The position numbers and the translations under genes were made by a program. Shown here piece after piece: positions 11,901 to 61,090 of a stretch of DNA of 64,000 nt. The notes beneath the pieces were generated by a model. That model saw only the letters and a program-made list of their open reading frames with translations, did no database searches and was not told the DNA's origin. Every line of letters begins with the position of its first letter. Position 1 is the stretch's first letter. This stretch comes from Tubiluchus corallicola (lineage: Eukaryota > Priapulida > Priapulimorpha > Priapulimorphida > Tubiluchidae). The stretch lies in NCBI GenBank assembly GCA_030141605.1, contig JAQGDQ010000713.1:40486-104485 (forward strand), given 5' to 3'.

Positions 11901-12623
11901 AGGTTTGGTAAAGTTTGCTAAAAAAAACGTTTTGTCATTACGGTTGTGTTGAACTATGTGCAAATTTGGTTTGCAATAAATTTTCAACTTTTTCGAGGAT
12001 GACCCACTGAAAGAATTATTACCATACAAACACAATTTCACCTTCGCGCCACCAGTTCTTCGCTAATATATGTATTTCGCCTTTCGCTAGTTAGGCGGGC
12101 ACTGACACCTGTGTTTCGGAAACGCATTGCACAAAAAACCGGCGCTGCACCTTTCAGTTCAGTTGTGTTAGTTTGTGAGGAACTGCGGTAAATTTGAAAT
12201 TTGAATTTTTATCTTAAAACACGCCTAGTTTTAGTACAACACACTGAATATCTTACAGTAGCACTCCACTTCAATTTTTACTTTCACAAACACGTGCAAC
12301 TCGCTCGTGGAATATTTTTGCTGTTGAAAATTATGTTAGTTTGTGATGTCATCGATAGTTAGGCTCACCCTCTGTTAATTAAGTTTTTAATTTATTATTT
12401 AACTATCAGAAACGCTTTTGCAGTATTAATTGTGTTAAAACGTGTACTTTTTATCGGTCTTGAAAATGGGGTAGTGTATGAAAAGTCGCGTGATGACGAG
12501 CTTTAATTTAGTAACTTATTCTGGATTTTCTTTTCTCTAAGGCACAAGTGTTTGGACATTCCTAATTCGTTGCCACGGCTACTACATGTTGTCAAGTGGG
12601 AGAACAGGGACGATGTAACAGAG
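1084..12623 (+). CDS. Class I PI3-kinase catalytic subunit (p110-like), partial gene, 7 exons
   Basis: Class I p110 subunits phosphorylate PIP2 to PIP3 at the plasma membrane, bound to a p85-type adaptor and activated by Ras. Seven exons (1084-1232, 3019-3246, 4702-4896 or from 3580, 8514-8640, 10273-10445, 11721-11836, 12542-12623) join in compatible phases and read like PIK3CA/PIK3CB from the Ras-binding domain to the start of the helical domain. Landmarks are AIRKKARSM and LKVCGC (RBD), [30 protein letters not shown] and LNPLG/GSNPNK (C2), and [16 protein letters not shown] and [10 protein letters not shown] (helical). The N-terminus precedes the window. The rest of the helical domain and the whole kinase domain were not found downstream. 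Three junctions are amplified into minisatellites. Alpha versus beta type cannot be decided. The gene may be intact but misassembled, truncated, or a pseudogene. Confidence 0.85.
1263..1533. repeat. Two-copy tandem duplication of about 135 bp in a PI3K intron
   Basis: The stretch from 1263 (atgttgttttatgctgcag) to about 1397 is repeated from about 1398 to 1533 with a few substitutions. Both copies share gacgattgtttcgacatc and the tail aaataaattatatcat. They contain no recognisable coding sequence. Confidence 0.8.
1534..3018. other. Intron sequence with a large TTA microsatellite
   Basis: This is the remainder of the intron between PI3K exons 1084-1232 and 3019-3246. No gene is visible. Around 2040-2160 there is a GC-richer patch of unknown origin, and at about 2573-2630 a transposon-like motif (gtccgatataagggac). 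A trinucleotide repeat follows at 2665-2930. Confidence 0.6.
2665..2930. repeat. (TTA)n/(TTG)n/(CTG)n compound microsatellite
   Basis: A long TTA run grades into TCA, TTG and TGC triplets. It produces meaningless poly-Leu and poly-Asn open frames on the two strands. Confidence 0.95.
3019..3246 (+). CDS. PI3K exon: Ras-binding domain end and linker to C2
   Basis: The acceptor is attttcag and the donor is gtatgc; the exon has 76 whole codons. The product starts [17 protein letters not shown] and includes [22 protein letters not shown] and [11 protein letters not shown]. These match p110 (YIRSCIMLGRMPNLMLM, CFTMPSY, SLWVINSALRIKIL, ATYVNV). It joins in phase 0 with the next exon, which begins [10 protein letters not shown], as in human p110 alpha (IYVRTGIYHG). 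Confidence 0.9.
3247..3579. other. PI3K intron, no feature seen
   Basis: This short intron lies before the acceptor-repeat array. Its last 160 bases are pyrimidine-rich, consistent with splice acceptor context. Nothing else is recognised. Confidence 0.5.
3575..4750 (+). repeat. 66-bp minisatellite built from a PI3K splice acceptor and exon start
   Basis: There are eighteen units at exact 66-bp spacing, starting at 3580, 3646 and so on to 4702. Each unit carries the acceptor (aatgtttcag) followed by the exon start ATATACGTACGTGCC, ending in actcacagtatgtaatg. The last unit runs on into the true C2 exon. The whole array is open in the PI3K frame: 17 units of 22 residues (consensus [18 protein letters not shown] plus VMFQ) before the genuine exon. 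Variants alternate E/L in GR[E/L]TL and V/L in QY[V/L]MFQ. Either the array is intron and the last acceptor is used, or it adds up to 374 residues at the start of C2. A 437-residue open frame on the opposite strand is a repeat artefact. Confidence 0.95.
4702..4896 (+). CDS. PI3K exon: C2 domain, first half
   Basis: Starting at the last of the 18 repeated acceptors, this gives 65 whole codons ending before gtaaag. The product contains [44 protein letters not shown] and ends KKKGKE. It aligns directly with p110 alpha (IYVRTGIYHGGEPLC, CSNPRWNEWLNYDIY, LPRAARLCLSICSV). The start is uncertain because 17 upstream copies of the same acceptor, from 3580, are also in frame. Confidence 0.85.
4897..6823. 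other. PI3K intron with dispersed repeat copies
   Basis: No exon is seen. The stretches near 5069-5160 and 5457-5545 are divergent copies of each other (aaactgtaggt ... gaaagaattattacca). Roughly 5520-6060 has a second copy at 11930-12490 in a later intron of the same gene. The end near 5316 (aaataaaatg followed by repeated tatgtc) resembles the 3' tail of a non-LTR element, but no coding part remains. Confidence 0.55.
5520..6060. repeat. Dispersed repeat, copy 1 (partner at 11930-12490)
   Basis: Shared blocks include gaaagaattattacca, cagttcttcgct, ttcgctagttag, ttagtttgtga and tttgctgttgaaa, in the same order in both copies. Identity is high but clearly diverged. It is probably a non-autonomous transposable element; no terminal repeats or coding capacity were seen. 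Confidence 0.7.
6824..7828. mobile_element. Foldback-type element with terminal inverted repeats and internal minisatellites
   Basis: The left end ggttttacatgtcaaatg (from 6824) is inverted at the right end catttgatgtgtaaaacc (to 7828). Both ends are flanked by TATA (6820-6823 and 7829-7832), a likely target-site duplication. Inside the left arm are repeats of the type ctcaaatgtagacttagg. In the right arm, from about 7190, their reverse complements are expanded (tctacatttgacttaccta plus catttgagttaccaaaacac or catttgaactttcct). The arms are separated by AT-rich DNA at about 7040-7190. No transposase is present. Open frames of 90-103 residues in the right arm are repeat artefacts. Confidence 0.7.
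7833..8513. other. PI3K intron remnant with repeat debris
   Basis: Two similar blocks, cgggatcaaaaggggcccgg at about 7887 and gcaaggggcccgcc at about 7961, are each followed by aaaataaaa and poly-A/T. A short minisatellite based on agtttacacaattc lies at about 8030-8130. No gene is visible. Confidence 0.5.
8514..8640 (+). CDS. PI3K exon: C2 domain, middle
   Basis: The acceptor is atatttcag and the donor gtattg. The product begins [19 protein letters not shown] and ends [17 protein letters not shown], leaving one base (phase 1). p110 alpha has EHCPLAWGNINLFDYTD and LNLWPVPHGLEDLLNPI at the same place. Phases fit both neighbouring exons. Confidence 0.92.
8641..10272. other. PI3K intron containing a pogo-like element
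   Basis: Apart from the element at 9254-9849, this is AT-rich sequence without recognisable exons. The intron ends at gcgtatag, which supplies the GT completing the split Gly codon. Confidence 0.6.
9254..9849. mobile_element. Non-autonomous pogo/Tc1-like DNA transposon
   Basis: The terminal inverted repeats are ccgtattttcccgtgtataa at the left and its near-complement tatacatgggaaaatacgg at the right, flanked by TA on both sides (9252-9253 and 9850-9851). The motif gtctcttata recurs near both ends. Near the right end (about 9703-9751) an acidic frame reading [14 protein letters not shown] then stop resembles the C-terminal tail of pogo/Tigger-type transposases. The rest of the transposase is missing, so this is a deletion derivative. 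Confidence 0.75.
10273..10445 (+). CDS. PI3K exon: C2 domain end and linker
   Basis: The acceptor tag gives phase 1, completing Gly from the previous exon. It encodes [20 protein letters not shown], then [11 protein letters not shown] and ends [10 protein letters not shown] before gtaagt. p110 alpha reads [20 protein letters not shown] here. The last 30 nt and the donor are the seed of the following 41-bp array. Confidence 0.9.
10417..11633 (+). repeat. 41-bp minisatellite built from a PI3K exon end and splice donor
   Basis: About 29 units of 41 bp, with occasional 42-bp units. Each contains the exon end (gcaagctttgggttcgacaa, then ctgcacacagg) followed by a strong donor gtaagttctt. The first unit is the true exon end (donor at 10446). 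A 493-bp block is itself duplicated: the variant ttcttgcaagctttatgttt occurs at 10451 and again at 10944, followed by the same order of variants. Because 41 is not a multiple of three, the array gives long artefactual frames of 130-203 residues on the minus strand. Confidence 0.95.
11721..11836 (+). CDS. PI3K exon: start of helical domain
   Basis: The acceptor is ttttgttgcag and the donor gtatga. It encodes [19 protein letters not shown], then [19 protein letters not shown] plus two bases. p110 alpha has the same core ([20 protein letters not shown]). Phase 0 in and phase 2 out agree with the neighbours. Confidence 0.92.
11837..12541. other. PI3K intron with dispersed repeat, copy 2
   Basis: Most of this intron (about 11930-12490) is a second copy of the repeat at 5520-6060. 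It ends with the acceptor cttttctctaag. Confidence 0.65.
12542..12623 (+). CDS. PI3K exon: helical domain, last exon found
   Basis: It completes a split Arg codon and encodes [19 protein letters not shown] followed by ENRDDVTE. It matches p110 ([20 protein letters not shown]). It ends in GAG before gtaact. The expected continuation (p110 alpha MYCLVKDWPP and onward to the kinase domain) is not seen in the next 51 kb. Confidence 0.85.
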
Positions 12624-15540
12624 GTAACTAGTGCAATAGTTACAATAACGTTTTTGTATAACTAAGTATAACAGTTTTAACTAACGTAATTTGTGTAACT
12701 GAGGTAACTACATGTAGTGTAACAGTTGTAATTAATGCAATTTGTGTAACTGAGAAAATCACGTGTTGCGTAACAGTTGTAATTAATGCAATTTGTTTAA
12801 CTGAGATAACTACATGTAGCGTAACAGTTGTAATTAATGCAATTTGTGTAACTGAGGTAACTACATGTAGCGTAACAGTTGTAATTAATGCAATTTGTGT
12901 AACTGAGTAAATCACATGTAGTGTAACAGTTGTTACTAATGTAATTTGTGCAACTGAGGTAACTACATGTAGCGTAACAGTTGTAATTAATGCAATTTGT
13001 GTAACTGAGTAAATCGCGTGTAGCGTAACTGGTGTTACTAATGTAATTTGTGCAACTGAGGTAACTACATGTAGTGTAACAGTTGTAATTAATGCAATTT
13101 GTGTAACTGAGTAAATCACGTGTAGTGTAACTGGTGTTACTAATGTAATTTGTGCAACTGAGGTAACAACATGTAGCATAACAGTTGTAATTAATGCAAT
13201 TTGTGTAACTGAGTAAATCACGTGTAGTGTAACTGGTGTTACTAATGTAATTTGTGCAACTGAGGTAACTACATGTAGTGTAACAGTTGTAATTAATGCA
13301 ATTTGTGTAACAGAGAAAATCGTGTGTAGTGTAACTGGTGTTACTAATGTAATTTGTGCAACTGAGGTAACAACATGTAGCGTAACAGTTGTAATTAATG
13401 CAATTTGTGTAACTGAGTAAATCACGTGTAGTGTAACTGGTGTTACTAATGTAATTTGTGCAACTGAGGTAACTACATGTAGTGTAACAGTTGTAATTAA
13501 TGCAATTTGTGTAACTGAGTAAATCACGTGTAGTGTAACTGGTGTTACTAATGTAATTTGTGCAACTGAGGTAACTACATGTAGTGTAACAGTTGTAATT
13601 AATGCAATTTGTGTAACTGAGTAAATCACGTGTAGTGTAACTGGTGTTACTAATGTAATTTGTGCAACTGAGGTAACTACATGTAGTGTAACAGTTGTAA
13701 TTAATGCAATTTGTGTAACTGAGTTAATCACGTGTAGTGTAACTGGTGTTACTAATGTAATTTGTGCAACTGAGGTAACTACATGTAGTGTAACAGTTGT
13801 AATTAATGCAATTTGTGTAACAGAGAAAATCATGTGTAGTGTAACTGTTGTTACTAATGTAATTTGTGCAACTGAGGTAACAACATGTAGCATAACAGTT
13901 GTAATTAATGCAATTTGTGTAACTGAGAAAATCATGTGTAGTGTAACTGGTGTTACTAATGTAATTTGTGCAACTGAGGTAACTACATGTAGTGTAACAG
14001 TTGTAATTAATGCAATTTGTGCAACTGAGTAAATCATGTGTAGTGTAACTGGTGTTACTAATGTAATTTGTGCAACTGAGGTAACTACATGTAGCGTAAC
14101 AGTTGTAATTAATGCAATTTGTGTAACTGAGTAAATCATGTGTAGTGTAACTGGTGTTACTAATGTAATTTGTGCAACTGAGGTAACTACATGTAGCATA
14201 ACAGTTGTAATTAATGCAATTTGTGTAACTGAGTAAATCACGTGTAGCGTAACTGGTGTTACTAATGTAATTTGTGCAACTGAGGTAACTACATGTAGCA
14301 TAACAGTTGTAATTAATGCAATTTGTGTAACTGAGTAAATCACGTGTAGTGTAACTGTTGTTACTAATGTAATTTGTGCAACTGAGGTAACAACATGTAG
14401 CGTAACAGTTGTAATTAATGCAATTTGTGTAACTGAGTAAATCATGTGTAGTGTAACTGGTGTTACTAATGTAATTTGTGCAACTGAGGTAACTACATGT
14501 AGCGTAACAGTTGTAATTAATGCAATTTGTGTAACTGAGTAAATCATGTGTAGTGTAACTGGTGTTACTAATGTAATTTGTGCAACTGAGGTAACAACAT
14601 GTAGCATAACAGTTGTAATTAATGCAATTTGTGTAACTGAGTAAATCACGTGTAGTGTAACTGGTGTTACTAATATAATTTGTGCAACTGAGGTAACTAC
14701 ATGTAGTGTAACAGTTGTAATTAATGCAATTTGTGTAACAGAGAAAATCATGTGTAGTGTAACTGGTGTTACTAATGTAATTTGTGCAACTGAGGTAACA
14801 ACATGTAGCGTAACAGTTGTAATTAATGCAATTTGTGTAACTGAGTAAATCACGTGTAGTGTAACTGGTGTTACTAATGTAATTTGTGCAACTGAGGTAA
14901 CTACATGTAGTGTAACAGTTGTAATTAATGCAATTTGTGTAACTGAGTAAATCACGTGTAGTGTAACTGGTGTTACTAATGTAATTTGTGCAACTGAGGT
15001 AACTACATGTAGTGTAACAGTTGTAATTAATGCAATTTGTGTAACTGAGTAAATCACGTGTAGTGTAACTGGTGTTACTAATGTAATTTGTGCAACTGAG
15101 GTAACTACATGTAGCATAACAGTTGTAATTAATGCAATTTGTGTAACTGAGTAAATCACGTGTAGTGTAACTGGTGTTACTAATGTAATTTGTGCAACTG
15201 AGGTAACTACATGTAGTGTAACAGTTGTAATTAATGCAATTTGTGTAACTGAGGTAACTACATATAGCGTAACAGTTGTTATTAATGCAATTTATGTAAC
15301 TCAGAAAATCACGTGTAGTGTAACTGGTGTTACTAATGTAATTTGTGCAACTGAAGTAACTACATGTAACATAACATTGTTACTAATGTAATTTGTGTAA
15401 CTGAAGTAACTAAATGTGACTGAAGTATCAGTTGTTACTAATGTAATTTGTGTAACTGAGAAAATCATGTGTATTGTAACAGTTGTTACTAATGTAATTT
15501 GTGTAACTGAAGTAACTAAATGTGACTGAAGCATCTAATG
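12612..15540 (+). repeat. 51/102-bp minisatellite seeded at a PI3K splice donor
   Basis: The basic unit is about 51 bp. Pairs of units alternate to give a 102-bp higher-order period over most of the array (for example gtaaatcacg at 13111 and 13213). One half-unit contains aactgaggtaact, matching the real exon end and donor aacagaggtaact at 12618-12629. The other half has aactgagtaaatca, where the donor-like GGT is lost. There are about 57 half-units. The array is open on the minus strand for 839 codons with a 34-residue period; I regard that as an artefact. It decays at the 3' end (15350-15540) with irregular units. Confidence 0.93.
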
Positions 15541-15877
15541 TAACACAGGAACAACAGTTAGTTCCACACTGTAATTAAAATTATGGAACTTTATAACAGT
15601 TGTAACTATTCTGACGACCAGATCCGTGACGGACCCGTTACATCTTAAAGTGCATAAATACTTAAGTCCTGCTAAAGGAAAAGCCCAAGTCTCTCCGGAA
15701 GTTGACCTTATTTTAATATTTGAGTAAAATATTGAAAAGTTAAAGGAATAAAATAAGCGCCTCGTGTGATGTGTGAAATCAGCTTAAAGGTGCAACAATT
15801 TCGTTAGCTGTTTGTTTTAGGGATGATCTAAATTTCTGTTGCATTTTTAAGCAACGCATTTTTTGCGAGCATATTGC
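15541..15877. other. Spacer between two minisatellites
   Basis: AT-rich unique sequence. I looked for the next PI3K exon here and found none. Confidence 0.5.
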
Positions 15878-16803
15878 GTCGTAATTTCAGTATGTTCAAG
15901 TCTATATTAATGTGCGGTAATGAATAAGGGTTGATTTTTCCTTTAATGCTCCATATGACTCTTTATTGTGTGGTAATTTCAGTATGTTTAAGTGTATATT
16001 AAAATACAGTAATGAATAAGGGTTGATTTTTCCTTTAATGCTTCTTATGGCTCTTTGTTGTGTGGTAATTTCAGTATGTTTAAGTGTATATTAAAATACA
16101 GTAATGAATAAGGGTTGATTTTTCCTTTAATGCTCCGTATGACTCTTTATTGTGTGGTAATTTCAGTATGTTTAAGTGTATATTAAAATACAGTAATGAA
16201 TAAGGGTTGATTTTTCCTTTAATGCTCCGTATGGCTCTTTGTTGTGTGGTAATTTCAGTATGTTTAAGTGTATATTAAAACACAGTAATGAATAAGGGTT
16301 GATTTTTCCTTTAATGCTCCATATGGCTGTATATTGTGTGGTAATTTCAGTATGTTTAAGTGTATTTTAAAATACAGTAATGAATAAGGGTTGATTTTTC
16401 CTTTAATGCTCCGTATGGCTGTATATTGTGTGGTAATTGCAGTATGTTTAAGTGTATATTAAAACACAGTAATGAATAAGGGTTGATTTTTCCTTTAATG
16501 CTCCATATGGCTGTATATTGTGTGGTAATTTCAGTATGTTTAAGTGTATATTAAAATACAGTAATGAATAAGGGTTGATTTTTCCTTTAATGCTTCTTAT
16601 GGCTCTTTATTGTGTGGTAATTTCAGTATGTTTAAGTGTATATTAAAACACAGTAATGAATAAGGGTTGATTTTTCCTTTAATGCTTCTTATGGCTGTAT
16701 ATTGTGTGGTAATTTCAGTATGTTTAAGTGTATATTAAAATACAGTAATGAATAAGGGTTGATTTTTCCTTTAATGCTCCGTATGGCTCTTTGTTGTATT
16801 GTA
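15878..16803. repeat. 92-bp minisatellite, about 10 copies
   Basis: Units are spaced 92 bp apart (tggtaatttcag at 15971, 16063 and 16155). Each contains ggtaatttcagtatgttt, then gaataagggttgatttttcc and tttaatgctcc. Units differ by a few bases. The tttcag/TATG element looks like a splice acceptor, but no PI3K-like residues follow it (TAT GTT TAA). Confidence 0.9.
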
Positions 16804-19800
16804 ATTTCAGTATTTTTATCGCTTAAAGCATTTACTAGATTGTTTGATAATTATTAGCACTTTTTCATAATTTTCAGTATTTCTATTTTTCACTAGACTT
16901 GACGTTTTGCAAAACCAACGAGGTAGACATTATATTTTCTAGAATTCATCCTATTTAACTTAGTTCGCGCAGAGCAATTTGAGCTTATAAAATTTTCTTA
17001 ACGGATGTTTGCATAAGCGGTATTTAAATTTGTTTTGCAAAGTTTGGAAGGTCTTATTTGCATTTCAAAACTTTTTTCCGAACTATAGTATAGGGCTAAT
17101 GATCTTTTTATGGTTGTGGAAGATGTCCACTCATTGGTTTACATTTTACATGGCTTTGCTGATCTTACAATGCCGGGAAGATGTCGTTTCGGATCATGTG
17201 AGAGCACCTTGGAAATGTGCCCAGCTCGATAGTCCATCTCATGGGACGGAGAACTCGTCACCGGCCGGGTAGGAACTTTATGCCAATAAACGGCATATTA
17301 ATATATAATGAATAATTATATATGAATGATAATAATGAATATTAACCTTAAACCACCTTCAGTAAAATAAAATGAAAAATAAACATTAGATACGAGAGAA
17401 AAGTATTGTCTAAACAACGTTCCCAAAGTTTATGGCAATACATATACATAGCTATGTAATTTCTTATTTAGCTTCTGCATTTTGTATATGTTGTTTATAA
17501 GAAACATTTTCTATGTACAAAGTTCTACGCGTAATGGTGGTAACATATTGGACCTTGCTTTTACAACAGCTGAATTGAAGAGAACTCACTCAGCTTCCCC
17601 CATGCATATAATATGCTTATGAAAGCGTCTTTGACAACTCCAGTTGTGAACAATACGTGAATTAATAAATCAGTGCAAATATAAACTATGAGATGAACTC
17701 TGTGTCAATTGGGAGAAGTTTGCCCACATTGATTTGTACTTCCGAGAGACAAGTGTGATTCTGTGAATAGGCAGAAGGTAATTCGATACTCATTAGCGAC
17801 ATCTGCAAGCAGTTGACGGAGAATTGGACCTGACCAGTCGAGTGACCAGCAGGCATTGCGCTATTGCTCTTAATTGATATAAGTGTTATCAAAGCTGGAT
17901 AATGTGAACTGTTTGCCTGGTAGCCATTGCGCACTTTTATTTAGCATTAACAAATAGTTAATTAGAAATATATGGACGAAACAGGACTATAGAGATCCTG
18001 ATGAGTTATACAACATAATGATCACTGTGTTATTATATCTGATAGCAATGCTGCCACAATCATTCAATAGTAGGTCTTACTGGATTTGTAATTCGATGAT
18101 GGATTTTGGGTTTAAGATATATTTTCCAATACATGGTTTTACAAAGTATAGAGTCATAGATATACAACCTGGCTCGTGAAAACGTACCTGACACAATTCT
18201 TGATTATGGAAACGAGTATCTGGTTTACAGGAAAAGCAGGGAGTCATGTGGCGGAGGAGTCTTGCTTATGCGAAAAACAATAGAAAGTGTACGTGTGTCT
18301 ACGTACAATGAAACGGAAGTAGTAGCTGTTGATTTAAACCACCTATGAAAAGTTTGGTAATTATATTCTTGAAAATGGATTAACTCAGTGTGTACAAAAT
18401 ACTATGTGTAATGATAATATATTGGACCTTGCTTTTGCAACACTGGTATCAGAAGGGATTGGCTGTAGTGTAGTTAAAAATGGTTTGCCATAAAGTAGTT
18501 TCGAACTAGCTATCTTTGGAGTTGAGATGTCTGCTTGTTCCTACTGACGTCTGTCTTCACGAATCCATATTATATCAGTGAAGTCTTGAGTCTCCCTTAC
18601 TAAACATTTTTTGCTTTAATTGTATGCTTGATTATATGCTTTCAAGCTCATGCATTTAGGTAGCGTTTCATATAAATATGTCTCTCGGTGGTGGTGGATA
18701 GGCCTATATATAGTAGCAATGTGAAAAAATAATGTTTAAATTATATGATGTTTATTCTTCATAATTGTGCCTGATGTTTACTTTGCATTAAGGAATATTT
18801 AACGAAATTACTACATAGAATGGTAATTAGCAAGTTACAGGAGCGTGAGCCAGAAGGCAAAATTACATTATGGCTTATGACAGTGCCAGTAATGCAAACA
18901 GCCTAAACTCAAAACCTACTGTGAACACTGAAAATTGTCTAAGAAATTAATAATGTAAAAACAGTATTTCTAGAAATACGACCAGTAAAACACAACTAAA
19001 CGTGGAAGTAAAGAAATAGCAAAGACAGCAAAGACTTTGGCTAACCTGTTCCTGTTAATCTAGTATTTTGCTTTAGGTGGAAGTGGATTCTCTCAACTTC
19101 AGTGGTGTTTTATCATTTGCTTTGTCAAAATGTCCTAAAATCTTTTCAGTTGAGCATTAAGAAATTAATTATAAGCTGTATATGCCTTGTGGCACTATTC
19201 TTGCTGGCACAATCTGGCAGTAATTTTCGAATCAGAACCAGTATCAAAATCAGATGCACAGATATAGATTAATATACAGCTTCTGTTACTGAACTGTAAA
19301 CATAAAAAATGCATATCTGTCTACCAGAGGTGTAAATTTCAGCGAAACCAATAATGTAAGTATCACGATTTTAACTCTTAAATATATAATTTATTCAGCA
19401 AGGTGGCTTTGTGGCCACAGATTTGTGTTTCGGTCGGTTTTTGAAAAATTCTTAAATCTCCTGATTTCGACCATCACATTGAAATTAAGTGGAAAAAGCG
19501 GAAATTCAACTTGCATGCTAATTAAACTTTTTAAAAGATTATGCAAAAAATTCCACTGAGTCTCTGTTAATTAAGCTAACAGTAAACTTATTAAACTAAG
19601 TTTATAATCGGTTGCATAGCTTCATCATTTCACTCCATCTACATTTTGTGTCAATTTTTCCTGCATGATGGCAAATGCTGCAAAGCAAGTGTTCTTCCGC
19701 TTTAGCTTTATAATTTAGCTTTAAAGTTTTAGACTTTTAAGGCTTTTGGAATCTAAAATCAAGAATTTGTACTACTTTGTAGTTTGAATTTCTTGATTGT

Positions 19801-19970
19801 GGTTTCTGAGAAAGTCCTCATAAAACATTTAAAATGCAGTCATGCTTGGTTTCTAGGTCTCTGTCCTGGGGGAGCTTACAGCCCATCTAGCTAGGTCCTG
19901 ACTCCTGACTTCAGTTTGCGATAGGGTGGCAATCCTAATTCTAATTTGTGCTGCAGTAAGTAATTGTAAC
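16804..19970. other. AT-rich non-coding region with LINE fragments
   Basis: No host exon recognised. An open frame at about 17128-17271 (ending ...HGTENSSPAG) matches nothing I know. LINE fragments lie at 17515-18493. The remainder to 19.9 kb shows nothing identifiable. Confidence 0.45.
17515..18493 (+). mobile_element. Degenerate non-LTR retrotransposon (LINE) endonuclease fragments
   Basis: At 18184-18349 a frame reads VPDTILDYGNEYLVYRKSR, then ESCGGGVLLMRK, ending at a stop. This resembles the apurinic-type endonuclease of jockey/CR1-like LINEs (typically Y.VYRKDR...GGGVLI). At about 18363-18493 another frame gives NDNILDLAFATLVSE and KNGLP, the later NILDL and GLP motifs of the same domain. 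An earlier fragment at about 17515-17600 has NGGNILDLAFTTAEL. The element is broken by stops, and no reverse transcriptase part was found. Confidence 0.65.
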
Positions 19971-20047
19971 GCAACGAAGTTAAGCAACGTAGAGCCTGGT
20001 TAGTACTTGGATGGGTGACATCCTAGGAATACCAGGTGCTGTAGGCT
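19971..20047 (+). ncRNA. 5S-rRNA-derived sequence (SINE or 5S pseudogene), 3' two-thirds only
   Basis: From gaagttaagcaacg through gagcctggttagtacttgga and tgggtgacatcctaggaata to ccaggtgctgtaggctt, the sequence follows eukaryotic 5S rRNA positions from about 45 to the 3' end. It includes the internal polymerase III boxes (A-box region and the C-box tggatgggtgac). The first third of 5S is missing, and a non-5S GC-rich tail follows (gcgggatgcccacactgtat). This fits a 5S-derived SINE (SINE3 type) or a truncated pseudogene better than a working gene. Confidence 0.75.
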
Positions 20048-21041
20048 TGCGGGATGCCCACACTGTATCTCGACACTAGGCGGAGGAGCTGCACAAGCAG
20101 CCAACGGCTATAGGGCGGAGGAGGTCAAGTAACCCAACGGCCATGTGTAGAGGAGTAAACCTTCAAAATCAGGAATGGAGCCCCGAAGGCGGACCAGTGC
20201 AGCATGCTCACTGACTCCGGCAGCTCCTGCAGCTCCTGCAGCCAACCTTGTGCCAAACGCATCGCTGCGCTTTCCTTTGGACTACACTGGGGAGGAAAAG
20301 AGGGGGTTCCTGTTGTCTGGGCAACTCAGGATCTCCATACACTTTGCCCAGGCGTGCGCCCTGGAGACGTTCAAGTGCTCAGCCACAGTCGACGCTGCAG
20401 CTCCATTAATGTGATCAATAACTGACTCTCTTGGCGCACATTCCATTGTCTTCCGAGACAGAAGGATACCAACTGTCAAGGATTTTGTTTGTCAAATTTA
20501 GTATAGCTATAAGTTACAAGTGGCGACACCTGGCCTCAATAGTCGCTTCCTACAGAATTTCCGGTCATTTAGGTTTCAAGGTGTACATGTGGTGACGTGT
20601 CTGTGTGAACTCATGATTTAATGCCAACGATGTACGTAAATTTTATTTAGTCATTTATTTTATTTACTGTAAGCTTCTCATTAATTTAATCATATTCGAT
20701 GTTTTGGTAGAAATGAATCAGTTTATTAAAGAAATTTATATTTTATTTCAGATAAAATGTAATATTTTGGGATGAAGCAAATGACTACGGGGCATGTGCC
20801 ATGAAAATGGTACAAGCAATAAACAGTTATACTGAGCAAATGATGACTTTGTTTGTTTGTCTCCGTAAAGCCCAAGCAATTTTATATCGGCATTCGACAA
20901 TCCAGAGTGGACATTTTTATACAGTCAACATATGACCCAGATTGTGACCTACTTCTGGTTTAGCTACTGTTTCGCGTACATAGATTGACTTTTGTAGACA
21001 GGAGAAGTTATTTGGTCATGTTTAAAGTTGAACACACCTAA
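20048..21041. other. GC-rich tail of the 5S-derived unit and leader of the BEL/Pao element
   Basis: From 20048 to about 20480 a GC-rich block (repeated cggaggag; cagctcctgcagctcctgca) follows the 5S-like sequence and may belong to the same repeat. At about 20521 the sequence tggcgacacctgg, preceded by gttaca, resembles a BEL-type primer binding site just after an LTR end. I could not find a matching LTR at the 3' side. The rest is probably the untranslated leader of the retrotransposon. Confidence 0.4.
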
Positions 21042-23390
21042 ATGATGTCGGACCAAACAACAAGGGAGAAATTAAAAAATACGACCCGTGATCAGCTGCG
21101 AGAAATGCTGCGGGCCAAACAACTGTCAGTTTCTGGTAGTAAAGAAGAGCTAATTCACAGACTCTTAGCAAGTCAGCAGAAACCAGATCATTCATATAAT
21201 GTGACGTCATGTGAAGCGTCTGGTACGTCGTCGTATGTTGATGCAGCTACAGCGACAGCGCAGCATCAAGTTGGCGAGCGCAGCCCTTCCAAAGCATCGT
21301 CAGGTGCTAGTCATTCGAAATCTACGAGACGGTCGAAGAAAAGTGCGAGGGAATTAAAGTTGCATGAGATTAAGATTCAGGAACAGGAGCTGAAATTAAA
21401 AGCAATGAAATTAAAACAGTTAAGACTTGAGAGTGAAGTTGCTTCACATAGCAGTGCAACCAGTCAGAAGTCGCGTACAACCGTCACCTCGCCTGAAATC
21501 AAGGACGAGACTTTAGCTAGGAAACCCATGTCAACCAAGGACAAGGTTACCGATTGGCTTCAAGGAGTGCGTGACGTCACCAAAGCCCAGTCATCAGACA
21601 CCAAGCCTGCAGTTCATCATACGTCTATGGAGGCCTATCTCACCATGGCAACGAACGACAGTTATGCTGAGGGAGTTCTTGTCTTGGCACACAGTCTGCG
21701 TCGAACTGGTACAACTCGACATCTAGCAATTTTGGTCACCCATACTGTTTCTAGCAGAGTTATGGCAGAGCTTAGTAATGTTTTTGATTATGTACAAATG
21801 ATTGATTTATTAAAGAGTAGTGATTTTGATAACTTGCATTTGCTAGGTAGGCCAGAGCTAAATGTAACATTCTCGAAATTGCACTGCTGGGCTATGACAC
21901 GGTTTACTAAATGCGTTTACTTAGATGCTGATACTTTAGTATTAGAAAATATTGATGAGCTATTTAATTATAATGAGCTTGCGGCTGCCCCAGATGTGGG
22001 GTGGCCTGATTGTTTTAATTCTGGTATGTTTGTATTTCAGCCTAGTTTGGAAACTTACAGTAGATTGTTGTCACTATCACAAACTGAGGCCTGTTCATTC
22101 GATGGCGGTGATCAGGGTTTATTAAATTTAGCCTTTCCGAACTGGAGTTCACAGTTTGACAAGCGCCTACCTTATGTGTATAATGCTGCCGTCCAAGGTC
22201 GTTACGGTTACCTGCCTACAATGAAGCAGTTCAGTAGCAAGATTAAAGTTGCGCACTTTTTAGGCCGAAAGAAGCCCTGGGATTATACTGAATATGTAAA
22301 CGGGGAGATCTCCGTCAATTTTTCGGACTTTGAATCAGGTTTTCTTCGTAGATGGTGGGATATCTATTTGTCTGATGTACAGCCCTTCTTCGAAAATTCT
22401 CCTAGTGAAGTTTTAGAACCTAGCGTTAAACAAACTACGTCGTTCTGCCGTGCCGCATTTAAATCACCCCAGGTAGAACAAACTTTAAATACTTCTGCAC
22501 GTGACTTCGTCCCAGGGAATATGCATCTTCCGCTTCCGGCTACATCGCCTCAGGCTTCTTATGGTAGCGGAGTTCAAAATAGTTCTAGGAATTTCTCTGG
22601 TAGGGCTAGTCAGAATGACATGAACGTTTTTATGGACCTCATGTTAGAAGGCCAAAGACAACACTTAAATATGTACAATGCTATGCAGCTTCCACACGTG
22701 CAGCTTGAAACGTTTGATGGTGACGTAATGAGGTTCTGGAGCTTTATCAAGCGTTTCGAAGCCAGCGTGGAGAACTATACCCAAGATGATGCAGCGAGGT
22801 ACACTAGGTTAGCCCAACTCTGCATTGGTAAAGCTAAAAGAGTTGTTGACAGTTGTAATTACATGGACCCCTGTTTTGCATATGGGCATGCTAAACAGCT
22901 TTTAACCGAAAGAGTCGGCTCGCCATTTGTTGTCACACAGGCCTGGCTTTCCAGAATTGCTGAATTTGAGCCCATAAAGATAAATGAGCCGGGAAAGTTA
23001 CAGGAATTTTCGGATTTGATTGTGGCTTGTGTGGAAACTTTGAAAATAATGAACAACGTTTGCGAAATTAGTACTCAATGCAGTTTGCTACAAATAATTA
23101 AAAAACTCCCATTCAAGTTCCAGGATAGGTGGAAGGATGTTGTAGCCAGGCTTCTGAAATATGAGCACAGGAATCCGACGATATTTGATGTAGTCGAATT
23201 CACTAAGGACGCAGCTGACAAAATGAATCATCCTGTCTTTGGCGACATTAACGTTAGCCTGCCTACCAGGAGCCCAAGAGGTAAACGCGACACTAAAGCC
23301 AGGAATTTCGCCAACTCAGCGCAGGAAACTGCGTCAATTACGAAATGCAACAGTGAACGACAACCCGGAAATACAACAAGGAAGTGGTAG
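21042..23390 (+). CDS. Gag-like polyprotein with in-frame glycogenin (GT8) domain, 782 residues
   Basis: Residues 8-45 look like a SAP helix-loop-helix (TTRDQLREMLRAKQL, SGSKEELIHRLL). Residues 100-135 form a lysine/leucine-rich coiled coil, as in many BEL/Pao Gags. Residues 196-450 are a glycogenin catalytic domain, which in cells makes the UDP-glucose-fed primer of glycogen. It starts at its own Met (MEAYLTMATNDSYAEG) and includes KLHCW, the metal-binding DxD (YLDADTLVL, D295/D297), WPDCFNSG, FDGGDQG (D357), GRYGYLP (Y388, equivalent to the autoglucosylated Tyr195 of human GYG1) and HFLGRKKPW. From about 460 a typical Gag-like segment resumes (VQLETFDGDVMRFWSFIKRF; CIGKAKRVV). The domain has no introns and keeps frame on both sides, implying capture of a spliced host mRNA. 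An Asn/Ser-rich linker follows it. Confidence 0.9.
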   Translation: MMSDQTTREKLKNTTRDQLREMLRAKQLSVSGSKEELIHRLLASQQKPDHSYNVTSCEASGTSSYVDAATATAQHQVGERSPSKASSGASHSKSTRRSKKSARELKLHEIKIQEQELKLKAMKLKQLRLESEVASHSSATSQKSRTTVTSPEIKDETLARKPMSTKDKVTDWLQGVRDVTKAQSSDTKPAVHHTSMEAYLTMATNDSYAEGVLVLAHSLRRTGTTRHLAILVTHTVSSRVMAELSNVFDYVQMIDLLKSSDFDNLHLLGRPELNVTFSKLHCWAMTRFTKCVYLDADTLVLENIDELFNYNELAAAPDVGWPDCFNSGMFVFQPSLETYSRLLSLSQTEACSFDGGDQGLLNLAFPNWSSQFDKRLPYVYNAAVQGRYGYLPTMKQFSSKIKVAHFLGRKKPWDYTEYVNGEISVNFSDFESGFLRRWWDIYLSDVQPFFENSPSEVLEPSVKQTTSFCRAAFKSPQVEQTLNTSARDFVPGNMHLPLPATSPQASYGSGVQNSSRNFSGRASQNDMNVFMDLMLEGQRQHLNMYNAMQLPHVQLETFDGDVMRFWSFIKRFEASVENYTQDDAARYTRLAQLCIGKAKRVVDSCNYMDPCFAYGHAKQLLTERVGSPFVVTQAWLSRIAEFEPIKINEPGKLQEFSDLIVACVETLKIMNNVCEISTQCSLLQIIKKLPFKFQDRWKDVVARLLKYEHRNPTIFDVVEFTKDAADKMNHPVFGDINVSLPTRSPRGKRDTKARNFANSAQETASITKCNSERQPGNTTRKW

Positions 23391-24633
23391 CAAAATGGCT
23401 TCTCAACGCCTAGAGATGCCTTGTTTTCTATGTAACTCTACGGAACACCGTTCACTCAAGCTATGCAATAAATTTAAGTCAATGAATGATACTGATAGAT
23501 TGAAAACCGCCAGAAGAGAAGGTCTTTGCTTCAATTGTTTGATTAAAGGAAAGCACAGGGCTTCTCGATGCTTCAAAGCAGGATGCGACGTAGAAGGATG
23601 CAGACGTAAGCATTCAAATTTACTGCATGCTGCCTTGGAGAAAATGTCACCTTCTAAAAACAATGATGAAAGCAAGGAGAAAAAAGCGCCAACACATTGC
23701 AAACCAGAGGCTTCTAGCAGTTGTGCTAGTATTAAGGAAGGCGGCAAAGCGGCTCTCCCTGTTGTCTCAGTTTTGGTTGAAGTTGATGGGAAGATGCCCG
23801 TGCGTACTTTAGCCCTACTTGACCCTGGCTCGACTAACACCTTTTGTACAAAGGCATTGTTCGACAAACTTGGGGCTACTAGACAAAAACGAACGCTCTC
23901 TTTAACCACTATAGAAGAGAAATATTCCAAGATAAACACTTTAATCACGAAGATGTCTGTTACTGGGGTAAACACTGGCAATAAAATAGCTTTGCCTTAT
24001 GTCTTCGTTAGGCCTGCATTGTTGCTGGAAAAGGACTGCTTGGCCTTTAGCAAGGATGTAGAACAATGGCCGCATTTGCAAGGAATCCCCCTATCGTTCA
24101 CAGATACAGAAGACCTAACTGAGCTGGGCCTTTTGATCGGCCAGGATGTTCCTGATGCGCTGATTCCTCTTGAGCTACGAACAGGTCCTAGACTAACGCC
24201 ATATGCTGTAAAGACAAAGCTAGGCTGGACCCTTAATGGACCCATAGGAGGCGGCGTTCCTAATTTAGGGCGCATTTGTAGTAATTTGACCCAAGCCAAT
24301 GCATTGTCATATGGAGAAACCAATTCCTTGCAGCAGCAAATAGAACAATTCTGGAAAATTGAAACTAGCGAGTTTGACAGACAATTCTTTTTAGACGATA
24401 TGCGTGCTCTCGATATATGGGAGGCTTCAATTACAAAAACACATGGGCATTACCAGTTGGACATCCCATTTAAATCTGAGAATGATGTTTTACCAGATAC
24501 GCTACAAATGGCTTCATCTAGATTGGAAAGTCTACGTAAACGGCTGCAGAGGAACCCAGAATTGCACAACCGATACACTATAGCTATAAATGACCTACCT
24601 ATTCAAGAAAGGATATGCAGAAGAGATCGATGA
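23239..24633 (+). CDS. BEL/Pao zinc-knuckle and protease region
   Basis: The meaningful part starts near 23395. It has Cys/His motifs CFLCNSTEHRSLKLC and CFNCLIKGKHRASRC, then CDVEGCRRKH, typical of the knuckles ahead of BEL/Pao proteases. The aspartic protease segment reads VRTLALLDPGSTNTFC, with D-P-G where D-S/T-G is usual. It continues with LIGQDVPDALIP and KTKLGWTLNGP, common in BEL/Pao. The frame lies +1 relative to the Gag frame and overlaps it by 152 nt. The Met at 23239 is probably not a real start. It ends at a stop in the stretch leading into the reverse transcriptase. Confidence 0.8.
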   Translation: MATLTLACLPGAQEVNATLKPGISPTQRRKLRQLRNATVNDNPEIQQGSGSKMASQRLEMPCFLCNSTEHRSLKLCNKFKSMNDTDRLKTARREGLCFNCLIKGKHRASRCFKAGCDVEGCRRKHSNLLHAALEKMSPSKNNDESKEKKAPTHCKPEASSSCASIKEGGKAALPVVSVLVEVDGKMPVRTLALLDPGSTNTFCTKALFDKLGATRQKRTLSLTTIEEKYSKINTLITKMSVTGVNTGNKIALPYVFVRPALLLEKDCLAFSKDVEQWPHLQGIPLSFTDTEDLTELGLLIGQDVPDALIPLELRTGPRLTPYAVKTKLGWTLNGPIGGGVPNLGRICSNLTQANALSYGETNSLQQQIEQFWKIETSEFDRQFFLDDMRALDIWEASITKTHGHYQLDIPFKSENDVLPDTLQMASSRLESLRKRLQRNPELHNRYTIAINDLPIQERICRRDR

Positions 24634-27403
24634 AGATGATGACCCTACTTCCAGGAAATGGTTTTTTCCCCATTTTCCGGTGTTTAATGCCAATAAACCA
24701 GAGAAAACTCGCATCGTCTTTGATGCAGCAGCGGAAACAAATGAAGTATCTCTAAATAAATTAGCATTGCAAGGGCCAGATCTCACAAACACGTGCATTG
24801 GAGTTTTGCTTCGGTTTAGAGAGAATCCTATTGCAGTAATGGCGGATATCCGGGAGATGTTCCACCAGGTGATCGTGTCTCCAAAACACAGAAATATGAT
24901 GCGTTTCCTTTGGTGGAAAGATAGAAATCTTAACAGTCAACCATGTACTTTTAGAATGTGTGTACACTTGTTCGGCGGGGTGTGGTCCCCGAGCGTTGCA
25001 TCATTTGCTTTGCAAAGGACTGCAAAAGACAATGCAGATCTGTTTCCCGCAAATGTTGTCGCTACCATTTTGAGAAACTTCTATGTGGACGACCTTTTAA
25101 AATCGCTAAACACCGTGAATGAAGCCATACAGTTAGTTTCTCAACTGACTGCCTTATTGTCTCTTGGTGGATTCCACATAACTAAGTGGATGAGCAACAG
25201 ACGTGAGGTCTTGGCATCTGTGCCTGCTGAAGAACTTGGAAGCGAAGTCAAGAATCTTGACTTAACTCAGAGCCCTCTGCCAACTGATCGCGTACTGGGA
25301 GTTAAATGGCTAGTTGAGGAAGATTGCCTTGGAATCTTGGTTTCACTCAAAGACAAGCCCAGTACAAAACGAGGAATGTTAAGCTGCATTTCGTCAGTCT
25401 ATGACCCATTAGGAATGATCTGTCCATTCGTTTTGCAGGCCAAAAAACTCTTCCAAGATGAATGTAGAATTCAGAAAAAGGATTGGGATGACGCTCTAGA
25501 ACGAGATACAGAAGCCAAGTGGGCAAAGTGGAAAGGAGATTGTATCGCACTAGAAAACTTCAAGTTGGAGAGATGCATGAAGGCTCGTGATTTTGGCCTG
25601 ATTTTCCATTTGCAGTTGCATCATTTCTGCGATGCTTCGAGCTATGCTTATGGTACTGTCAGTTATGTACGTATGAAGAGTGCTCAAGGTGAAATTCACA
25701 CAGCATTCCTCATGGCTAAATCAAGACTTGCCCCACTTAAAGGTCTTACAATACCGCGTCTTGAACTCTGCGCTGCAGTTTTAGCCTCTAAAGTTGATCA
25801 AATGCTTAGGGAAGAGCTATCCTTTTGTGCTGGTACAGATCAGTCGGTCTTCTGGACTGATAGTCAGATAGTTATTCATTACATTCGGAACACAGCAAAG
25901 CGGTTTCATACATTCGTCCAAAACCGTGTCAACTCAATCTTGCAAGTCTCTTCACCAACTCAATGGCGGTTTGTTAGCTCAACAGACAACTGCGCTGATG
26001 ATGCGTCCCGAGGCATGAGCGCTGAAGAATTGCTACTTTCCAATAGATGGAAGTTTGTTCCATCTTTCTTAAGAAAAGATGAAGCTTCGTGGCCGCAGAC
26101 TAATTTAGATTCGGATGATATACTAGCTAATGACAAAGAAGTAAAGCGGTCAGCCACTGTGAACGTCGTAGAATGCAAAGGAACTTCAAATAATGTCATA
26201 GATCAATTGTTGCAGCATTACTCATCCTTTTACAGGCTAAAAAGAGGTTTAGCCTGGTTATTACGAGCCAAAACAATATTGCACAGGAAAGCTTCTGGCG
26301 GAAGTGATATGGATTGTTCCACAAATCTAACTCTGACTGAATTAAATGAGGCCCAGAATGAGCTGATCAGACACACACAGAAGCAAAGTTTCAACAAAGA
26401 ATATAAGACGATGTGTTCCCGTACCAAATCTACATGCCCAGAACGCTCTGTAACCAAATCATCCTGCCTGTATAAGCTGGATCCCTTTATTGATAAAGAG
26501 GGAATTTTGCGTGTCGGCGGTCGCCTGCAAGATGCTCTAGTAGATCATGAAGCTCGTCATCCTGTTATTCTTCCCAAAAATCATAGACTCTCTTGGCTTG
26601 TCATACAGCACTTCCACGAGACAAATGGACATACAGGTAGAGAACATGTCATGGCTTCAGTCCGTAGAGCGTTCTGGATAATTGGGATGCGAGTCATGGT
26701 GCGGAAAGTAATCCATGAATGCAGACAATGTAGGCTGCGTTACTCTCAACCATTGCAACAAAAGATGGCCAACTTGCCTCCTGAGAGAGTTCAACAAGGC
26801 TCCTTCTCTGCGGTTGGCGTGGACTGCTTTGGACCAATTTTGGTCAAACGTGGTAGAATCGAGGTGAAGCGTTATGGGGCACTCTTTACTTGTCTAGCCA
26901 CACGAAGCATCCACTTGGAGGTACTCTTCTCGATGTCTACAGATTCCTTCATTAAAGCACTCCATAGATTTTGTAGCAGAAGAGGCAAACCTAACAGAAT
27001 TAGGTCCGACTGTGGCACTAATTTTATAGGTGCCAACAAGCAACTTTCCAAGGCTATGAAAGAGTGGAATCACAACACTATTCAGAAAGACTTGCTCCAG
27101 GAGAACATCGAGTGGGAGAATAATCCGCCACGGGCTCCCCACATGGGAGGAGTATGGGAAGCAATGGTCAAGATTGTCAAGAAGCATTTGCTTTCTGTGA
27201 CAAATGAACAAGCTCTTGATGATGAAGCTCTCAACACTCTATTCTGCATTGTTGAAAACGTTGTCAATAGTAGGCCTTTAACGGCAACCTCGGACGACCC
27301 AAAAGATTGTAGTCCTCTGACGCCCAATCACCTGCTGTTGGCGAAGTGTTGGCGAAATTTATTACATATTTCTTTTCTCTCTAGTACAAACTACACACAC
27401 TAA
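24590..27403 (+). CDS. BEL/Pao reverse transcriptase, RNase H and integrase
   Basis: Reverse transcriptase: RKWFFPHFPVFN, KTRIVFDAAA, ADIREMFHQV and the catalytic FYVDDLL (about residues 163-169). RNase H: FCDASSYAYG, RLELCAAVLAS, FWTDSQIVIHYI and ADDASRG. Integrase: zinc-binding HFHETNGHTG with CRQCRLRY, catalytic D in VGVDCFGP, D in RSDCGTNFIG and E in MGGVWEAMV. After LTPNHLLLAK the family usually continues for about 100 residues; here the frame ends in 18 unrelated residues, so the C-terminus is lost or altered. The frame is +1 relative to the preceding one with a 44-nt overlap. I take this as a single-base frameshift because the Y...KKGYAEE region that normally joins the two is split at that point. 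Confidence 0.88.
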   Translation: MTYLFKKGYAEEIDEDDDPTSRKWFFPHFPVFNANKPEKTRIVFDAAAETNEVSLNKLALQGPDLTNTCIGVLLRFRENPIAVMADIREMFHQVIVSPKHRNMMRFLWWKDRNLNSQPCTFRMCVHLFGGVWSPSVASFALQRTAKDNADLFPANVVATILRNFYVDDLLKSLNTVNEAIQLVSQLTALLSLGGFHITKWMSNRREVLASVPAEELGSEVKNLDLTQSPLPTDRVLGVKWLVEEDCLGILVSLKDKPSTKRGMLSCISSVYDPLGMICPFVLQAKKLFQDECRIQKKDWDDALERDTEAKWAKWKGDCIALENFKLERCMKARDFGLIFHLQLHHFCDASSYAYGTVSYVRMKSAQGEIHTAFLMAKSRLAPLKGLTIPRLELCAAVLASKVDQMLREELSFCAGTDQSVFWTDSQIVIHYIRNTAKRFHTFVQNRVNSILQVSSPTQWRFVSSTDNCADDASRGMSAEELLLSNRWKFVPSFLRKDEASWPQTNLDSDDILANDKEVKRSATVNVVECKGTSNNVIDQLLQHYSSFYRLKRGLAWLLRAKTILHRKASGGSDMDCSTNLTLTELNEAQNELIRHTQKQSFNKEYKTMCSRTKSTCPERSVTKSSCLYKLDPFIDKEGILRVGGRLQDALVDHEARHPVILPKNHRLSWLVIQHFHETNGHTGREHVMASVRRAFWIIGMRVMVRKVIHECRQCRLRYSQPLQQKMANLPPERVQQGSFSAVGVDCFGPILVKRGRIEVKRYGALFTCLATRSIHLEVLFSMSTDSFIKALHRFCSRRGKPNRIRSDCGTNFIGANKQLSKAMKEWNHNTIQKDLLQENIEWENNPPRAPHMGGVWEAMVKIVKKHLLSVTNEQALDDEALNTLFCIVENVVNSRPLTATSDDPKDCSPLTPNHLLLAKCWRNLLHISFLSSTNYTH

Positions 27404-28145
27404 CAAAGGTGCCACTTGCTGGTCGGCCACTGCTTTGCGATATGCTTCAGTACAACCTAAAGACATGTGCTCACACCTAGCATAACCTCTTTGGTTATCG
27501 CATTTCTTGGACCAATTTTTACATTGGTTTTCATAAGCATAATTTGGAAGTTGACAGCTATTATAGTGATATTCTTTTAATTTCTGTTTGAAGTCGGGGA
27601 GATGTTATATTTGTTTTATTTCACTGAATAGTGATTTCCATAAATTTATGGAATGATTTCATATGGAATGATTTCCAAATTTATTGTTTACTGTAATTTA
27701 ATTTAAACTGTGCATTGTATTGTTTCAAGAGATATCAGGAGTGGATGATAAAGTATTATTTAGAAATTGAATGCTCAGTTTACTCATAAAGAAATATTAA
27801 TGTTTTATTTGAGTTTTTTGTGGAAGGTTCTTAAATTTGTTGTAGAAGTGGCATGTTGTTTAGCAGACGGGGGGATATTAGCCATGTATTAGTCTAAATG
27901 CAGAATTTTGCATTGTATTTAGTTTTATATTTTATAAAGTTTTCTTTTTTTAACGTTTTGTAATAAAGTGCATCAGAAGTAACTAAAGTCTCTGAGACGT
28001 TACTTGGAAATGCAAAAAAAAAACTAAAAGTTTCATTGTTAAGAGTATTGTGGCGCGCCATCTGATGCAGCATAACTTGTTAAGTATTAATATTACAATT
28101 AAACAGAAGCGTGTTCAAAATTGTGCATTTGTGCATGTACTTTCT
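27404..28145. other. 3' region of the retrotransposon, possible LTR and polyA signal
   Basis: Non-coding. A purine stretch, gaagtcggggaga, directly before tgttatatttg at about 27603 resembles a polypurine tract and LTR start. AATAAA occurs at 27962-27967, followed by tctctgagacgttactt. No matching upstream LTR was found, so this stays tentative. Confidence 0.4.

Positions 28146-35738: not shown

Positions 35739-61090
<25,352 letters not shown>

Follow-up and report, generated by a model that had tools for sequence, protein, structure and literature searches.

Retrotransposons of the BEL/Pao type (Belpaoviridae) encode gag, pol and occasionally an env-like gene (PMC8742986; so also the available part of PMC3118150), and a continuous gag-pol is an allowed form in this family (PMC8742986). 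Here we analyze a stretch of 64,000 nucleotides from the priapulid Tubiluchus corallicola (GenBank assembly GCA_030141605.1, contig JAQGDQ010000713.1, positions 40,486 to 104,485 of the forward strand), which is called the window in the following and which contains a copy of an element with a complete glycogenin domain fused in frame into its Gag protein. The element resembles BEL/Pao retrotransposons in its long terminal repeats (LTRs), in the order of Gag, protease, reverse transcriptase (RT), Peptidase_A17 and integrase, and in its length of 7.6–7.7 kb. It differs by the glycosyltransferase domain inside Gag, whereas the family profile names gag, pol and sometimes an env-like gene (PMC8742986).

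The second point of comparison are the cellular glycogenins (GYG1 and GYG2, family GT8). From UDP-glucose, GYG1 assembles a short glucose chain on its tyrosine Y195, and it carries a C-terminal domain binding glycogen synthase (available parts of PMC12267440 and PMC4370744). The element domain is 47–60% identical to the five animal glycogenins compared and shares with the cellular enzymes the active-site residues, the acceptor tyrosine and the predicted fold. It differs from them in being embedded in Gag, in being intronless and in forming a clade of its own, and the glycogen-synthase docking motif was not found in the element frames.

Next to these, captured enzymes have been described for other LTR elements. 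In bdelloid rotifers, the available part of PMC5408684 reports LTR elements with a captured third open reading frame (ORF3) encoding a GDSL esterase, a DEDDy exonuclease or env; these elements likewise gained an enzyme gene, but as an ORF3 beside gag and pol, whereas here a glycosyltransferase is fused inside Gag. Moreover, retrotransposon polyproteins can contain optional in-frame accessory domains, i.e., a chromodomain, a DnaQ-like exonuclease or a viral helicase, some of which are enzymes as in the present case; none is named a glycosyltransferase in the available part of that source (PMC6338049). Finally, viral GT8-like proteins (baculovirus, giant-virus p13 and others) share a glycogenin-like predicted fold in a Foldseek search against BFVD, but they are from DNA viruses and phages, and the p13 rows are 13–32% identical over the aligned part.

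The glycogenin domain within the Gag frame

The Gag of the window copy is a single open frame of 782 residues at 21042–23390 (+), stop-free throughout, in which a SAP domain and a presumed coiled coil are followed by the complete glycogenin GT8 domain and a DUF1759 Gag part. The features of the element in the window are the following:

20474..20878 (+): 5' LTR, 405 bp, TG...CA; 13 mismatches over 404 aligned bases to the 5' LTR of the copy on contig C1810
21042..23390 (+): open Gag frame, 782 residues, with the glycogenin domain; from the frame itself, Pfam domains and related copies
21084..21167 (+): SAP domain, Gag residues 15–42; Pfam, score under the cut-off here but over it in five of the six frames from related copies
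21336..21452 (+): long helix, presumed coiled coil, Gag residues 99–137; AlphaFold2, mean predicted local distance difference test score (pLDDT) 72–89 over residues 101–130, lower at the ends
21627..22391 (+): glycogenin (GT8) catalytic domain, Gag residues 196–450; Pfam, match to human glycogenin-1, structure model
21924..21932 (+): DxD motif (human D102-x-D104), placed by alignment, which we take to bind the metal
22203..22205 (+): tyrosine aligned with the self-glucosylation acceptor Y195 of human GYG1; alignment
22713..23138 (+): DUF1759 Gag core, Gag residues 558–699, modelled all-helical; Pfam, AlphaFold2 model
23227..24633 (+): frame that holds Cys/His-rich stretches, which we read as zinc knuckles, and a match to aspartic protease; its phase differs from that of Gag here and agrees with it in related copies
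24590..27349 (+): RT, Peptidase_A17 and integrase part of Pol, in the third phase; similarity to related copies extends to about 27349, and neither the 3' end nor a 3' LTR is present

Residues 196–450 (nucleotides 21627–22391) match residues 2–254 of the human glycogenin-1 domain with an expectation value (E) of about 1e-82, far past chance, and Pfam assigns Glyco_transf_8 to residues 200–416 (E 4.6e-17). Both results bear out the initial annotation, which had read a complete, intronless glycogenin domain in frame within a BEL/Pao-type Gag with Gag sequence on both flanks, and the alignment places the domain where it had been drawn. The flanking domains score lower. The SAP domain (residues 15–42) reaches E 3.9e-4 and 20.4 bits, under the Pfam cut-off of 23.9, but is above it in five of six frames of related copies (29–40 bits), the sixth being L017 with 20.1 bits. 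DUF1759 (residues 558–699) reaches E 8.7e-5 and 23.0 bits with a cut-off of 25.4; four of six related frames are above the cut-off, and L034 and L049 are short by 0.3 and 0.2 bits.

A structure model of the glycogenin domain, built from 33 aligned sequences, has a pLDDT of 83.7 and a predicted template modelling (TM) score of 0.87. Its first 40 matches in the PDB are all glycogenins, among them human GYG1 (3t7m; E 1e-29, TM 0.89 by query length). The whole-Gag AlphaFold2 model has a mean pLDDT of 64.4; with a model of this low confidence, no named capsid was found for the DUF1759 core among the 50 best fold-search matches of each search, which looked glycosyltransferase-type or unrelated.

Downstream of Gag, open reading frames (ORFs) of the window carry RVT_1, Peptidase_A17 ('Pao retrotransposon peptidase') and integrase domains. 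The order protease, RT, Peptidase_A17, integrase (RVT_1, Peptidase_A17, Integrase_H2C2, rve, DUF5641) is that of BEL/Pao; the aspartic protease is only weakly matched (Asp_protease_2, with E 0.0087 for the window and 0.00078 for L049). By these Pfam domains, which set its class, the element is a BEL/Pao-type LTR retrotransposon; the RT tree described below comprises copies from this genome only. The window copy itself is defective. Gag, protease and Pol lie in three phases, i.e., there are two frame breaks, and its 3' end is gone. A search for LTR pairs inside the window found none, and the 5' LTR was recognised via related copies.

The element region (20001–28000) has a G+C content of 0.40–0.44 compared to 0.32–0.40 elsewhere in the window, except for 0.436 at 10001–12000. 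Just upstream of the element, 19949–20047 is 5S rRNA-like (32.9 bits, Rfam gathering cut-off 38) and possibly part of a 5S-derived short interspersed nuclear element.

Intact and recently moved copies

Three copies on three contigs are bounded by paired LTRs with TG...CA ends and by exact 5-bp target duplications. The copy on C1810 (element 7720 bp) has LTRs of 407 and 407 bp without mismatch, the copy on C448 (7747 bp) has LTRs of 422 and 422 bp with one mismatch, and the copy on C1887 (7569 bp) has LTRs of 323 and 405 bp, the 5' LTR being shortened, with one mismatch in 322 aligned bases. A 5-bp target duplication is usual for BEL/Pao elements. Each copy carries one continuous ORF, of 2217, 2201 and 2028 residues, respectively, with the glycogenin domain inside, and the remaining integrase domains were found in pieces of C1810 and C448. 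These three copies moved recently with the glycogenin domain aboard, as their identical or nearly identical LTRs, target duplications and ORFs show. The LTRs and total lengths of the three copies examined fall within the ranges given for BEL/Pao (LTRs 0.2–1.2 kb, element 4.2–10 kb), and 8–9 of the last 12 bases before the 3' LTR are purines, where a polypurine tract of about 10 nucleotides is expected. In C1810 only about 90 bp separate the end of the Pol frame from the 3' LTR, which leaves no room for an env gene.

The family across the host genome

The host assembly (343.5 Mb in 2344 contigs) was searched with the glycogenin domain, the counts being lower bounds. A search of the same assembly for COX1 gave no match. 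At least 94 matching rows cluster into at least 69 places. By position, 53 of the 69 adjoin matches to the part of Gag before the domain (Gag-N), the part after it (Gag-C) or RT, and 24 hold Gag-N, glycogenin, Gag-C and RT, all in the expected order. The other 16 are four exon-size pieces of glycogenin genes (C2137, C2318) and twelve partial or broken matches, one of which (C1835) has RT about 1.2 kb downstream, beyond the distance filter used. Of the 69 places, 21 have an essentially full-length domain without stop. Compared to the window domain, identity is 94–96% for the other full-length copies in its subfamily and 49–58% for full-length domains from other lineages. Conversely, 60 of 112 Gag-C places have no glycogenin row within 3 kb upstream. 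The glycogenin domain is thus a shared trait of a diverse clade of elements and not a single captured copy.

Two carriers lie about 10 kb apart in opposite orientation on C1780 (50535–51290, minus strand; 60225–60980, plus strand); the domain of the latter is identical to those on C900 and C2321, possibly as duplicates or redundant contigs. Five further carriers (C1796, C2016, C2136, C2140, C2209) have the same scores, identities and stop pattern, suggesting that one copy spread recently or that contigs are redundant.

Insertion site, origin, gain and loss

Seven lineages were read, with C1810 and the window, C930, C2, C448, C2317, C215 and C485 as their representatives. In each of them a KVxxW motif comes after the coiled-coil part, the domain starts 13–29 residues past this motif, and a variable linker then leads from the domain toward the DUF1759 core. 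Sister elements without the insert, whose existence the initial annotation had raised, were found in the host genome. In two such Gags lacking the domain, the corresponding motif (TRDWV and TKRWV) is separated from the core by a plain linker a few tens of residues long, and the SAP domain is present in the first of them. The reading that the domain begins at its own methionine applies to the window's subfamily only, where residue 196 is a methionine; other lineages join the domain without it.

The first domain tree contains 49 rows, i.e., 26 element domains free of stops (some of them identical), human GYG1, 21 further glycogenins from the database and the host gene; of the 30 element rows, four whose domain contains a stop (C533, C1689, C2308, C2066) were excluded from trees and residue counts. 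All 26 element rows fall on one side of a branch with support 94/94. A broader tree with 12 of the 26 element rows and more animal groups unites the element rows with 98/93, its bootstrap being not fully settled. The host glycogenin gene on C2137 is spliced, as had been assumed, its catalytic domain being split by introns into five pieces, and it groups with vertebrates in the broader tree (99/96). In both trees the element domains branch outside this gene and outside every cellular glycogenin compared. The derivation of residues 196–450 from the host glycogenin, and with it the initially proposed capture of this host's mRNA by one element, finds no support in these trees and in the presence of carriers in many lineages. 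The donor cannot be named, given the long branches and trees without non-bilaterian glycogenins. A second glycogenin-like gene lies at C2318:609–2567, with two exon-size matches on opposite strands.

The RT tree was computed from 21 carriers and 20 non-carriers, as single pieces cut at stops; the labels follow the listed rows of the domain search, the carrier C1835 being called from a partial domain match and the non-carrier C19 from the absence of a listed row only. All carriers lie within a group of 30 (support 90/88), which also encloses two nested sets of non-carriers with 5 and 4 rows. The carriers as one clade were rejected (approximately unbiased (AU) test, p 1.4e-4). Three changes explain presence and absence of the domain, compared to a mean of 13.9 after shuffling. 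Since three changes suffice in the RT tree and the element domains form a single clade, one old gain followed by two losses would be the simplest account.

Selection and retained functional features

Ratios of non-synonymous to synonymous substitution rates (dN/dS) were estimated after Nei and Gojobori from nine disjoint within-lineage pairs picked by hand, seven of them for Gag-N. The ratio is 0.37 for the glycogenin domain (Fisher p 6e-10; single pairs 0.18–0.90), 0.31 for Gag-N and 0.22 for Gag-C, indicating purifying selection on the glycogenin domain. In comparisons between lineages, synonymous sites have reached or almost reached saturation, whereas dN of the domain amounts to 0.29–0.49, and the domain has therefore long been conserved.

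At 11 core positions, selected in part from the titles of glycogenin structures, 21 of the 26 stop-free element rows (some identical) show no substitution, gaps aside. The acceptor tyrosine is present in all 23 of the 26 rows that reach the Y195 column. A pattern for the glycogen-synthase docking motif was found in none of 30 element frames, 21 of which reach at least 300 residues past the domain and nine of which are shorter, compared to 185 of 197 database proteins (one of the 197 being a Gag). As far as seen, the element appears to have kept the catalytic half of glycogenin and not the part that recruits glycogen synthase. This disfavors the priming of glycogen on particles, which had been among the roles suggested at first.

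Proposed role and alternative explanations

Taken together, we consider it probable that a BEL/Pao clade gained one glycogenin domain long ago, has inherited it since and has kept it as a self-glucosylating enzyme making short chains on Gag. One BEL/Pao ancestor would have acquired the catalytic domain between the SAP/coiled-coil part and the DUF1759 core of Gag, and the domain would then have been inherited with the rest of the element, as the trees, the shared site, the open frames and the dN/dS ratios suggest. With UDP-glucose, the domain might place short glucose chains on its own acceptor tyrosine, in line with the kept active-site and acceptor residues, and the assembling Gag would thereby bear an oligoglucan coat. 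Because the docking motif is missing, the chains would stay short and would not seed glycogen. The altered particle may benefit the element by Gag spacing or solubility, by binding to glycogen-rich sites or by masking, which is speculative. We see about even chances that the particle self-glycosylates in the full sense, i.e., that a working domain in a structural protein builds a sugar coat, freed from glycogen synthase and selected in a long-lived clade.

Several observations weigh against this account. Self-glucosylation and its benefit are read from the sequence, and the activity of the domain is a prediction. Purifying selection appears weaker in the glycogenin domain than in Gag-C by dN/dS, and the F-lineage pair alone accounts for the value of 0.90. 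Core positions are changed in five of the 26 rows, with D160V in C1451, D102E in C461 and C485 (identical rows), D102N in C2283 and Q164R in C608. Moreover, P238, which is linked to the positioning of Y195 in GYG1 (available part of PMC12267440), is found in none of the 23 element rows that have a residue at this poorly aligned column, although it is present in only 11 of 23 cellular rows. Human GYG2 keeps the tyrosine yet was unable to self-glucosylate in the study PMC12267440, as far as its available part reports, and retained residues are therefore no proof of activity. Furthermore, the two domain trees disagree, at weak nodes, on how the element lineages are ordered, and the domain would be dispensable in the long run, since it was lost twice on the simplest account.

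The chief rival, which we regard as unlikely, is that the domain is kept for its dimeric fold as an oligomerisation or spacer module of Gag, with catalysis no longer under selection. The domain adjoins a presumed coiled coil in an assembly protein, GYG1 forms dimers (available part of PMC12267440), and the core changes listed above are in agreement with it. However, most rows of lineages whose full-length domains are 49–58% identical to the window domain retain the residues for metal, donor and acceptor, and a role of the fold alone would presumably not need them.

Multiple gains, or recombination at the shared Gag site that carried the domain from one element to another, seem quite unlikely. 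The rejection of the carriers as one clade in the RT tree favors them, and so do the lineage F carriers, which are sister to non-carriers with similar Gag N-termini. On the other side, the element domains are one clade apart from cellular glycogenins, and both the RT tree and the 49-row domain tree (where E joins F with only 64/44) separate lineages A–D from E and F, although this congruence is not firm, as the broader domain tree places F with A–D at a weak node (53/90).

It is also improbable that the enzyme acts on the host, by diverting UDP-glucose, by competing with the host glycogenin or by glucosylating host proteins that restrict the element. The mostly kept catalytic residues would allow it, and a GT8 enzyme could modify other proteins. 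Yet none of the 30 frames shows the docking motif, including the 21 that continue for 300 residues or more beyond the domain, a domain that is part of Gag has Gag as its nearest substrate, and GYG1 is known as a self-acting enzyme (available parts of PMC12267440 and PMC4370744).

The recent pick-up of a spliced glycogenin mRNA from this host by a single element copy would agree with an intronless domain next to a host gene with introns, but it is ruled out as a single-copy event by the genome-wide searches, the domain trees and the RT tree, i.e., by the many carrier places in divergent lineages, by synonymous sites at or near saturation between lineages and by element domains that do not group with the host gene; we give it very little credence. 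That a host glycogenin gene is mixed with retroelement debris, or that the assembly is artefactual, has next to no probability, for although the window copy is broken and lacks its 3' end, three copies, each on its own contig, have paired LTRs, exact target duplications and uninterrupted ORFs, and 24 places share one domain order.

Searches for comparable fusions

For a self-glucosylating Gag as proposed here, no described counterpart was met. In open-access literature (titles and abstract openings), no LTR retrotransposon with a glycogenin or glycosyltransferase in Gag was found, no relatives of the fusion were found in viral_contigs, and none of the best 50 Foldseek matches in BFVD was named a retroelement Gag. 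When the whole Gag was compared with 5.8 billion proteins, the best 120 of 282 matches covered 31–45% of the query, all with PF01501; for an alignment of five element Gags the best 120 of 804 matches covered 23–35%, again all with PF01501. Both searches scored only the approximately 8000 candidates sharing most words, and candidate lengths were about 430–1368 residues (whole Gag, Gag-C) and 520–1655 residues (five-Gag alignment), so that polyproteins of about 2200 residues would be missed. Gag-C alone matched one DUF1759 protein in the protein database, with 23% identity. Captured enzymes in LTR elements are already known, and a glycosyltransferase inside Gag is new within the literature and proteins searched, in which no comparable element was found.

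Other features of the window

Minisatellite arrays with units of 41–120 bp and 92–97% matches are located at 3576–4749, 10414–11630, 12669–15523, 15872–16818 and 58898–59858, and in the first and the last of these arrays both strands have long open frames. At 40935–41411, a WSC domain (E 4.9e-7) lies in an open frame that is perhaps a host exon.

Implications

The glycogenin domain is common to several deep lineages and has domain-free sisters, which opens its gain and loss to direct study. It ties a selfish element to core carbohydrate metabolism and suggests that glycogenin catalysis may be uncoupled from glycogen synthase. For annotators, it means that glycogenin matches in animal genomes can be retroelement-derived. 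Moreover, the element makes it testable whether the particle proteins of retroelements can modify themselves with sugars.

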